Shown piece after piece: positions 38,359-50,767 of a stretch of 64,000 nt of DNA; the stretch's first letter is position 1; every line of letters begins with the position of its first letter. The DNA comes from Geobacter sp. AOG1 (lineage in GTDB: Bacteria > Desulfobacterota > Desulfuromonadia > Geobacterales > Geobacteraceae): the NCBI RefSeq assembly GCF_019972315.1, contig NZ_BLIZ01000001.1, positions 124,001 through 188,000 on the forward strand, given 5' to 3'. A program made the translations under genes and the position numbers. The notes under the pieces were generated by a model that was given only the letters and a program-made list of their open reading frames with translations, was not told where the DNA came from and searched no databases.

Positions 38359-38495
38359 TTGACGCTGCCGTCTCTGTGGGTGTATGTACATGAGCAATCT
38401 TTTATGGAGTGCCCGGGAGGGGTTATGGGAGGCCGGTATGCAGGGCATAGAGCCGCTTGATCAGCGTGAAAGCCGTTGAAGCGGCTTTCACGCTG
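38359..38495 (+). ncRNA. Candidate structured RNA / leader element, copy A
   Basis: A promoter (TTGACG 38359-38364, 18-base spacer, TATGTA 38383-38388) is followed 18 bases on by the 17-base core GGAGTGCCCGGGAGGGG (38406-38422). AGCCGCT (38451-38457) can pair with AGCGGCT (38480-38486) across a 22-base loop, then TTT. In this copy the second arm can instead join a 14-base-pair stem, CAGCGTGAAAGCCG (38462-38475) with CGGCTTTCACGCTG (38482-38495), so two exclusive folds exist. A frame MGGRYAGHRAA starts at 38425 right after the purine-rich core. Copy B lies at 45782. It ends 85 bases before the zinc-ribbon gene. It matches no RNA family I recall. Confidence 0.55.
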
Positions 38496-38579: not shown

Positions 38580-39590
38580 ATGGATTTCACCTGTCCGAAT
38601 TGTAAGCTGGCAGGACACATCGATGACGCAAAGTTACCGGAGCAGGGTCTCTACGCTGCCTGCCCCAAATGCAAGGAACGGTTTCTCGTAAAAAGGGAAC
38701 CGGCACCGGAGCAGCCCCGGGAGCAGCCGAAACCGGTCTCTCCAGCCGCCAGCTCCACAGCGGATGTCCGAACGGCTTTACGCCAGGCAGCGGCGGAGAG
38801 GACCGTCCGGCAGCCGCGCACGGAGAGACCATCGGCCGGACGAAGTGCCAGGGCGGCAGCTTCGGCTGCCACCGACGATGATATGAGAACCTTCGTCGGC
38901 AAGAATGCCGACAAATATCTGCGAAAGTTCGAGAACTTCACCTCGGGCGGGGATGACGGTTTTGCCGTGACCTGGCACTGGCCGGCCTTCTTCGTTCCCT
39001 TCTGGTGGCTGGTGTACAGAAAACAGTACATGTGGGCTCTCCTTGCCTTTTTCATCTCGTTCATTCCCTATGTCGGCCTGCTCTCCATGGTCGCCTTCGG
39101 TCTGACGGGGAACTACATTTACTACATCTACACAAAGAAAAAACTGAATGAGATAAACTCGATGCCTTCGGAGATGGGCAGGGCTGTCGAGATAGCCCGT
39201 GCCGGGGGGGTGAACAATGTTGCCCTCGTACTGGTGCCACTGATCGGAATAGCCCTTCTGGGGATAATAGCCGCCATTGCGATACCGCAATTTGCCGCGT
39301 ACAGGACGAAGAGTTTCAATGCAGCCGCGCTTTCCGAGCTGAAAAACGCCAGGACGTGCGTCGACACCTATTATGCCGAGCACAAAGTGTATCCCGACAG
39401 TCTGGAACAGGCGAACTTCAGGAAAACGCAGGATATAGACGTGCATTTCAATGACGTCGCAACGGATAAATACACTCTCGTTGCGATGCACCCGAAAGGC
39501 GACAAGGAATTTGCCGCCAAGTCGGATGTGCCGGATTTGTTGTGCAGGTCGAACAAGAATAAGGATAGTGAATTTGTGCCGCTAAAGTGA
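38580..39590 (+). CDS. Zinc-ribbon / DUF2628-like / pilin-like chimeric membrane protein
   Basis: A 336-residue protein with an unusual domain order. Residues 1-40 are an MJ0042-type zinc ribbon (CPNCKLAG and CPKCKERF). A disordered Pro/Ala/Arg linker follows to about 105. Residues 130-200 hold membrane segments with WPAFFVPFWWLVYRKQ, as in DUF2628 proteins. Residues 220-265 hold GIIAAIAIPQFAAYRTKSFN and a helix LSELKNARTCVDTYYAEHK, which closely follows the type IV pilin N-terminal helix of Geobacter PilA but lacks the prepilin GFTLIE cleavage site and its glutamate. The C-terminal 70 residues resemble a minor-pilin head. It follows RNA-like element copy A. Function unknown. Confidence 0.75.
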   Translation: MDFTCPNCKLAGHIDDAKLPEQGLYAACPKCKERFLVKREPAPEQPREQPKPVSPAASSTADVRTALRQAAAERTVRQPRTERPSAGRSARAAASAATDDDMRTFVGKNADKYLRKFENFTSGGDDGFAVTWHWPAFFVPFWWLVYRKQYMWALLAFFISFIPYVGLLSMVAFGLTGNYIYYIYTKKKLNEINSMPSEMGRAVEIARAGGVNNVALVLVPLIGIALLGIIAAIAIPQFAAYRTKSFNAAALSELKNARTCVDTYYAEHKVYPDSLEQANFRKTQDIDVHFNDVATDKYTLVAMHPKGDKEFAAKSDVPDLLCRSNKNKDSEFVPLK

Positions 39591-39695: not shown

Positions 39696-40514
39696 ATGGA
39701 ATTTTATCTACCGGAAATAGGCTCATGGGGTGAAGAAAAATACCGCCTCGTTCGTAACTACGCCCAGATGTTTGCGACGTCCATGAAGGATAAGTGGCAG
39801 TGTCGGGTTTACATCGATTTGTTTTCGGGGGCGGGACGCGCGAAAATCAAGGATACCGGTAAAATTGTCGATGGCTCACCGCTTATTGCACTAAGTATCG
39901 AAGACCCTTTTGACAGATATATCTTCTGTGAGAAGGATGCGACGAACCTCGATGCGTTATCCAAAAGGGTCAAGGTCCACTATCCTTCGTTGGATAGCCA
40001 TTTCGTCCATGGCGACGCCAACGATTCCGTTGACGAAATACTCTCCCTGATCCCCCAACATTCCACCTCATACAAGGTGCTCGGTTTCTGCTTCGTGGAT
40101 CCTTACAAGAGCGACAATCTCAAATTCAATACGCTGCAGCGACTTTCGGCTAAATACATGGATTTTCTGGTGCTCATCCCGACCGGAATGGATGTGCGAC
40201 GTAATGTGTCGTATTACATGAAGTATAATAGCAAACAAATCGAAGAGTTTACCGGCCGACCGAAATGGCGGGATGAATGGCCAGCGGCGGAAATGAATGG
40301 AGAAAATTTCGGCCTCTTTTTTATCAAGCAGTTCTGTACTTCCATGGCAGATATCGGCTATAAATACACAACTGCAGAAGCCTCGGTTGAAATCCGGTCG
40401 ACCGAAAAGAATTTACCTCTGTATCGACTGGCATTTTTCAGCAAACATTCTCTGGGACACAAGTTCTGGGGCGAGGTGAAGAAATATAGCACGCCGCAGC
40501 TAGACCTGTTTTGA
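39696..40514 (+). CDS. tcmP: Three-Cys-motif partner protein TcmP
   Basis: A 272-residue TcmP family protein. The ATG at 39696 is preferred over TTG 39654 because GAGGG lies 6 bases upstream and the product then opens as in the family, with [18 protein letters not shown]. The motif [13 protein letters not shown] resembles the SAM-binding DLFSG loop of DNA methyltransferases, and [10 protein letters not shown] sits where a catalytic DPPY-like motif would be, so a methyltransferase-like activity is plausible. TcmP is known to sit beside a protein with a three-cysteine motif; here that is the DUF5131 gene 11 bases downstream. Sampled lines count 38-48 percent GC, below the neighbours, suggesting transfer. 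Confidence 0.88.
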
Positions 40515-40525
40515 AGGGAAATAAT

Positions 40526-41260
40526 ATGTCGAAGTCAGCAATAGAGTGGACTGGATCAACGTGGAATCCGGTTACTGGCTGCATCAAGATAAGCCCCGGC
40601 TGCAAACATTGCTACGCAGAACGGATGGCGAAGCGCCTGCAGGCGATGGGACAGAAGAATTACCTCACAGGCTTCGAGTTGGCTTTGCACCCTCATGCAC
40701 TTGAACTTCCCCTTACATGGAAGAAACCACAGACCATCTTTGTGAACTCCATGAGCGACCTTTTTCTGGATGACGTGCCGGCAGAATTCATACAGAAGGT
40801 CTTTGATGTGATGCGACGGGCGCATTGGCACACCTTCCAGATTCTGACAAAGCGATCGGAAAGGCTGGCCGGACTTAGTTCGGAACTGCCATGGGCAAAG
40901 AATATCTGGATGGGAGTCAGTGTAGAGAACAATGACTACACGTACCGTGTCGATCACCTGCGGTCGACTGGGGCTCCTGTAAAGTTCCTCTCCATGGAGC
41001 CGCTGCTTGGGCCAACTCCTGACCTCAATCTCCAAGACATTGACTGGGTTATCGTGGGGGGCGAGTCCGGTCCCGGAGCTCGTACAATGAAAGAGGAGTG
41101 GGTTGTCGGGATAAGGGGGAAATGCCTGAGAGCGAACGTCCCATTCTTTTTCAAACAGTGGGGCGGAGTTCGTAAAAAGAAAGCCGGCAGGGAGCTGCAG
41201 GGCAAGACATGGGATCAGATGCCGAGAGTTCTACAAAATCTGAGGACGGTTCAGTTGTAA
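40526..41260 (+). CDS. DUF5131 / phage Gp37-Gp68 family three-Cys-motif protein
   Basis: A 244-residue protein beginning [18 protein letters not shown]. The three cysteines at about 19, 26 and 29 ([20 protein letters not shown]) give a Cx6CxxC pattern that could bind an iron-sulfur cluster or metal and is reminiscent of radical SAM enzymes. Later motifs include [35 protein letters not shown] and [13 protein letters not shown], all typical of this family. GAAGGGA before the ATG at 40526 decides the start. It is found in phages and islands with TcmP; the activity of the pair is not known to me. Nothing resembling an integrase is adjacent. Confidence 0.88.
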
Positions 41261-45781: not shown

Positions 45782-45917
45782 TTGACGCTACAGCCTCTAC
45801 GGGTGTATGTACGTTGGTAATAATTTACGGAGTGCCCGGGAGGGGCGATGGGATACCGAATTGCAGGTTCATAGAGCCGCTTGGTCAGTGTAGGTGCTGA
45901 TGGAGCGGCTTTTATCG
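45782..45917 (+). ncRNA. Candidate structured RNA / leader element, copy B
   Basis: The same layout as the element at 38359: TTGACG (45782-45787), 18-base spacer, TATGTA (45806-45811), then after 17 bases the identical 17-base core GGAGTGCCCGGGAGGGG (45829-45845). The terminator-type pair AGCCGCT (45875-45881) and AGCGGCT (45904-45910) again encloses 22 bases and is followed by TTTT. Only one base of length difference separates the two copies from promoter to terminator. A short frame MGYRIAGS starts at ATG 45848. The element ends about 105 bases before the protease gene. It may be a small RNA, an attenuator or a leader peptide; no RNA family was recognised. Confidence 0.55.
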
Positions 45918-50652: not shown

Positions 50653-50702
50653 TAAAAAAAGCCGGGTTGCCGAATATCGTATGATATTTCGGCAACCCGG
50701 CT
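50653..50702 (-). terminator. Riboswitch-controlled intrinsic terminator
   Basis: On the minus strand AGCCGGGTTGCCG plus AAATATC pairs with GATATTCGGCAACCCGGCT, loop ATAC, followed by a run of Ts. The upstream arm is also part of the aptamer, so ligand binding and terminator formation compete. This predicts a transcriptional ON switch, as described for related Geobacter cGAMP riboswitches. Confidence 0.9.
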
Positions 50703-50767
50703 GTCTCCTGGAGACCCTTTAGGCTTTCCGTCCTATCCTCGCGGATAGTTTAGTATTTTCGTCTATC
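50683..50767 (-). promoter_or_regulatory. GEMM-I (cGAMP-type) riboswitch aptamer
   Basis: The minus strand shows GATAGAC, then AATACTAAACTATCC, loop GCGA, GGATAGGACGGAAAGCCTA, GGGTCTCCAGGAGAC and AGCCGGGTTGCCGAAATATC. These are the GEMM-I elements: hairpin with GNRA loop, the GACGGAAAGCC receptor joint, a second hairpin, and the closing strand. From memory the sequence is very close to Gm0970 of Geobacter metallireducens, a GEMM-Ib riboswitch that prefers 3',3'-cGAMP. Ligand preference must be inferred; a c-di-GMP response is possible. The closing strand overlaps a terminator, and the small gene plus histidine kinase follow. Confidence 0.92.

Follow-up and report, generated by a model that had tools for sequence, protein, structure and literature searches.

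Ribosome-dependent attenuators share a layout of promoter, translatable short frame, intrinsic terminator and gene (PMC9226507, PMC12218461, PMC8632094). In Bacillus subtilis, vmlR is controlled by an antibiotic-responsive attenuator with an upstream open reading frame (uORF), in which a promoter, a very short uORF of a few residues and an intrinsic terminator precede the gene; here a lone leader serves one resistance gene, and antiterminator structures have been proposed for it (PMC9226507). Amino-acid leader-peptide attenuators, including those of trp and his and the cysS uORFC-8-2 motif, likewise carry a short frame just before the terminator in a co-oriented leader (PMC8632094). For the uORF attenuator of a Sinorhizobium meliloti DUF1127 gene, the RNA and the position of the ribosome matter rather than the peptide, and the translation state is sensed; termination there is thought to be Rho-dependent, and the leader has no intrinsic terminator (PMC12218461). 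Closer in taxonomy, multicopy intergenic nucleotide sequences of Geobacter metallireducens, a member of the same bacterial family, were guessed to give short RNAs; in the available part of that source none is described as a promoter-uORF-terminator unit, a comparison made by description, and copies of the element reported here may already have been aligned within those sets (PMC2700814).

Here we followed up two intergenic elements, copies A and B, in a window of Geobacter sp. AOG1, that is, the whole stretch of 64,000 nucleotides analyzed. Both are members of a previously uncatalogued Geobacterales family of ~135-base gene leaders. Judging from their sequence, we favor, at a probability of about 0.57, the reading that they are 5′ leaders of the following genes within a family of portable ribosome-dependent transcription attenuators, in which ribosomes on a tiny frame probably decide the transcription of the downstream gene. 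In contrast to vmlR, the Geobacterales leader type recurs in front of many unrelated genes, and RNAalifold showed no antiterminator conserved across its copies; unlike the amino-acid attenuators, it has no run of regulatory codons, its peptide is not conserved, and its downstream genes have no common pathway; and, unlike the S. meliloti leader, it possesses a strong, covarying intrinsic terminator.

Two copies in the window and their family

An earlier note on this DNA had described a duplicated element with a shared promoter, core, hairpin arms and loop, and direct reading of the sequence confirmed all of these parts as well as the separation of ~7.4 kb (7,423 bases from copy A to copy B). 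In each copy, a promoter-like segment on the + strand (38359..38388 in copy A, with boxes at 38359-38364 and 38383-38388; 45782..45811 in copy B, with boxes at 45782-45787 and 45806-45811) contains the same −35 and −10 hexamers, TTGACG and TATGTA, with a spacer of 18 bases. After 17 bases downstream of the −10 box begins an identical 17-mer core, GGAGTGCCCGGGAGGGG (38406..38422 and 45829..45845, +), which includes the Shine-Dalgarno sequence GGGAGGGG, 2 bases 5′ of an ATG, and does not stand by itself as a core. The short uORF starting there encodes MGGRYAGHRAA* in copy A (38425..38460, +), with its stop inside the rising terminator arm, and MGYRIAGS* in copy B (45848..45874, +), whose TAG stop abuts the hairpin. 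The hairpin arms, AGCCGCT and AGCGGCT, enclose a 22-base loop in both; copy A has a terminator-type hairpin with a short T-run (38451..38489, +; arms 38451-38457 and 38480-38486), and copy B an intrinsic terminator hairpin plus T-run (45873..45913, +; arms 45875-45881 and 45904-45910). Downstream lie, respectively, the gene of a zinc-ribbon (PF13717) membrane protein (38580..39590, +) and that of a trypsin-like protease (PF13365; 46021..48030, +). Farther downstream of copy A, the interval 39696-41260 (+) encodes a Three-Cys-motif-like protein (PADLOC PDC-M41A) and then a second protein, which we take to be DUF5131-like; the two are a candidate defence pair.

Copies A and B are the only places in the 3.68-Mb genome with the exact 17-mer, and a 148-base copy B query retrieved copy A from the same genome with 78% identity (E 2.7e-23). 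Given this match and the many copies found elsewhere, the resemblance is not a chance one. When used against 58 relatives, the copy B DNA query yielded many strong matches spanning all 136 bases, and 27 clear full copies from this first pass were aligned to build a covariance model. The model revealed members in 10 of the 14 genera sampled in the family, the weakest matches being partial. Across the order, 20 of 141 genomes contained a member at E 1e-6, and among the carriers are Geomobilimonas luticola as well as several Geobacter metagenome-assembled genomes. Altogether at least 38 recognisable copies, from ~20 Geobacterales genomes, were obtained, and since they are partly related by descent, such counts overstate their independence. 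The genome of the window itself holds at least three further, diverged members, one before a DnaQ-type exonuclease gene (at 1211670), one before a response regulator-histidine kinase gene (at 2364537), where two sister species also carry the element, and one at 1118962.

Across the family, CCTTGAC marks a sharp rise in conservation, from ~0.3 bits to 1.27 bits, which is lost again past the T-run, and GGTGTATG is near invariant. The fixed geometry of promoter, core and terminator that the earlier note had proposed was borne out, in a real multi-copy element. Its author knew of no matching family, and Rfam gave no match to copy B even at E 5; in the window, Rfam returned nothing besides an unrelated c-di-GMP-I riboswitch (RF01051, 49.6 bits; 50688-50764, −), located upstream of a 93-aa frame. 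The note had also tied its case to further copies in related genomes and to covariation, and both, as far as sequence can test, were found.

The terminator hairpin and the short frame

The terminator hairpin is backed by covariation, with 95.2% of cells paired and double changes at 8 of the 16 pairs, which none of 500 shuffles equalled; these are the compensatory changes that the note had suggested looking for. Shifting the pairing partner abolished the signal, and in the copy at 1211670 the whole stem sequence is different with pairing kept. Searched as a pattern, the hairpin gave hits in 16 of the 141 Geobacterales genomes, against none for the reversed control, and only four Geobacterales matched in a 395-genome sample of the phylum. 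A recurrent GGGAATTAAGTATGRTGTCCCC-like motif was seen just 3′ of the T-run of several hairpins (loci L048, L053, L055 and L060).

Copy A had been noted for two exclusive folds, like a switch. The second fold does exist there, as a 14-bp perfect inverted repeat (38462..38495, +; 38462-38475 with 38482-38495) that competes with the terminator hairpin; its energy is −24.5 kcal/mol, whereas the terminator span folds at best to −19.2 kcal/mol. This palindrome is in no other family copy, and a conserved two-state switch was therefore rejected; it looks like the product of local quasi-palindrome correction rather than a family switch. Most of the T-run has been lost from copy A, which has also acquired a palindrome of its own that out-competes the terminator, so this copy may represent the leader in weakened or altered form. 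An RNAalifold consensus pairing the promoter spacer with the core was set aside as evidence, since that region lies upstream of the likely start.

In almost all copies, GGAGG or a variant precedes an ATG by 2-8 bases. The frame that follows ends before the hairpin (copy B), inside it (copy A) or past it, and in about one third of the copies it runs through the hairpin without stopping ahead. Across 24 copies, differences per site at codon positions 1, 2 and 3 were 0.386, 0.433 and 0.390, respectively, so the third-position bias proposed as the mark of a peptide is missing, and frameshifts occur between copies. On these grounds a conserved leader peptide, and with it conserved regulatory codons, was rejected. 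What is conserved is the ability to begin translation, by a Shine-Dalgarno plus ATG, just before the terminator, together with placement 5′ of a co-oriented gene. The leader-peptide alternative in the note comes nearer to this than an RNA switch does, the sequence of the peptide itself apparently being irrelevant.

The ATG context is itself a usable start, because in three species a 225-aa DUF2238-type gene begins directly at the homologous ATG, behind the homologous promoter and Shine-Dalgarno. At 1118962 in the genome of the window these parts directly start a gene that we presume to be DUF2238-type; away from the two copies, a segment homologous to the copy A core serves a real gene of this genome as its Shine-Dalgarno.

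Hairpin-only matches in other genera showed the same layout with promoters and short frames unrelated in sequence: a TTGAC promoter, a Shine-Dalgarno, an ATG, 7-11 codons, a stop 0-9 bases before the hairpin, the hairpin (GCCGCT..TCAG..CTGAT..AGCGGC), a T-run, and then the gene after about 40-60 bases. Their frames encode MVACLLAFDR*, MTVCLAFE*, MYSWSNAI*, MVSIWGHTG*, MTACFQHHKE* and MFSVYSDL*. Among 31 non-redundant leaders, a Shine-Dalgarno frame reaching the hairpin was present in 20 (7.7 ± 2.2 with shuffled upstream sequence; 0 of 500 shuffles as high), and 11 had no clear frame by the criterion used; a sigma70-like pair, promoter-like by sequence, was found in 20 of the 31 as well (null, 5.5 ± 2.1).

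Downstream genes, placement and rival readings

The genes following the leaders are unrelated, and no pathway common to them was found; many are accessory genes. They encode a trypsin-like protease, a zinc-ribbon protein, a nucleotidyltransferase, an N6/N4 methylase, NfeD, Kup, an IS91 transposase, a response regulator-histidine kinase, a LexA-like protein, Gp49/HigB (of a HigBA toxin-antitoxin pair), DUF2726, ORF6N, MazG plus a Schlafen-type helicase, HNH, Cas9, an exonuclease, CheW, a hydrolase and NhaP, and several match PADLOC models. In Geomobilimonas luticola, the Cas9 gene immediately follows an element copy (L073, 3128-5998). A small-protein family that starts near KPGQKGTxxLVEKYG was repeatedly observed after leaders, in four genomes of two families (L055, L153, L156 and L211). 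In two loci (L060 and L061), the HigBA cargo has a promoter-like sequence of its own 3′ of the terminator, so readthrough is not required in every case, which speaks against a simple always-on reading.

Placement was scored on gene calls from a home-made ORF caller trained on these loci, with approximate gene starts. All 41 full copies followed by a gene are oriented toward it, at a distance of no more than about 120 bases in half of the cases, and the upstream gene has the same orientation in 29 cases and the opposite one in 14. Large gaps in the loci include 73 tandem, 41 divergent and 12 convergent ones; divergent gaps are uninformative on orientation, and in tandem gaps 29 copies are co-oriented and none is reversed. 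Since random placement should have produced reversed copies there, the placement is non-random. This orientation toward the next gene bears on the idea of a stand-alone small RNA gene family, in which promoter and terminator would bound a ~95-base trans-acting RNA beside an incidental neighbour gene. The conserved block has the −35 box and the terminator T-run as its exact limits and so matches a complete transcription unit, several copies fold strongly (z about −3.6 to −5.5), and the interior is kept as nucleotides rather than as peptide, all of which would suit such an RNA; however, independence of position was not found, the Shine-Dalgarno plus ATG is conserved, and the hairpin recurs with unrelated leaders and unrelated frames, making this reading rather unlikely. 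A riboswitch or protein-binding leader, for example, with CsrA at a GGA-loop hairpin (CCC-GGGAG-GGG), is far less probable still. Most of the folded copies are predicted to form that small hairpin, which lies over the Shine-Dalgarno and withstands some base changes, but its covariation was not above shuffles (42 to 316 of 500 as high), and it was rejected as a conserved RNA structure; a CsrA-binding leader was rejected because the genome has no CsrA gene (PF02599 absent, control families detected), and neither the Rfam search at E 5 nor the downstream genes, which share no pathway, point to a riboswitch.

The history of individual loci speaks to a mobile or recombinogenic repeat, MITE-like or a cassette anchor, that carries or exchanges accessory genes with promoter and terminator as passengers. 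Copies cluster between toxin-antitoxin, BRO and S23 genes, some are split by inserted genes, near-identical copies (92-96%) occupy two sites in genome G003, and the same chromosomal site holds different defence cargo in G002 and G003. Nevertheless, this reading is unlikely, as terminal inverted repeats are lacking, the conserved ends are CCTTGAC with its −35 box and the T-run rather than transposon ends, most copies are old and diverged, and the element was not found in the plasmids, phages and viral contigs searched, so that an origin from these was rejected. At the copy B locus, element and protease gene are present in G000 and G001 and both gone in G003, which retains the gene's terminator alone; this state is hence a deletion and not an empty site, a cassette insertion there was rejected, and the sequences indicate that element and gene act as a single unit at this locus. 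At another locus, three species share flank and element and differ in defence cargo; two of them have a MazG-helicase there, and the third has an ATPase that matches PADLOC PDC-M68B. From the joint loss and the shared flank with different cargo it follows that leaders are reused and cargo exchanged. Also rejected was a REP- or RAYT-type palindrome, as this genome has no Y1 transposase, and inspection by eye showed no GTTRRRY/RYYYAAC boxes of integron attC sites.

Further features were observed around the copies. Those split after the core (L061 5212-4627 and 3669-3318, L054 and L075) contain either an S23 four-helix-type gene, flanked by GGGGC at each of its junctions, or a DUF2238-type gene, and sit in arrays with BRO, HigBA and GxxExxY-type genes. 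Spacers of L054 (G001) hold interspersed palindromic repeats, CTCACGCAACGCCGCGACG ... CGTCGCGTCGTTGCGTCGTCGCGTGA, plus CCCAGTCCCGAGTCCC tracts, near many copies.

A ribosome-dependent attenuator as the favored reading

Attenuation by ribosomes draws these features together: a sigma70-like promoter, a short frame that is opened by a Shine-Dalgarno and start codon and reaches the terminator, a covarying intrinsic terminator, and a co-oriented gene with its own start directly downstream. Transcription would begin at the promoter, and the hairpin would by default terminate most transcripts at a length of roughly 95 bases. A ribosome that halts where the short frame ends, or one that translates into the hairpin, would cover the rising arm and prevent the hairpin (in copy B, a ribosome at the stop codon would cover ~12 bases beyond it, which is the rising arm), and the polymerase would then continue into the downstream gene. 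Given the lack of peptide conservation, a single amino acid is a less likely signal than ribosome occupancy, slow translation or slow release.

The family is new, and its probable mechanistic kind, the uORF transcription attenuator, is a known one; unusual are its independence of the peptide and its sharing by unrelated accessory genes, as uORF attenuators are normally known singly, per gene or pathway. We tentatively put forward, as a rather improbable extension, that in Geobacterales a single generic sensor of translation, independent of the peptide, serves exchangeable accessory and defence genes as their common portable leader, such that a fall or stall in translation, e.g., under phage attack or antibiotic stress, switches on many unrelated cargo genes via the same terminator. 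If true, this would constitute a general translation-state switch for accessory genes, in which hairpin and ribosome-start geometry are kept and the peptide is free to change, and it would predict regulation of several defence systems, including Cas9, the Schlafen-type helicase, HigBA and candidate PADLOC systems.
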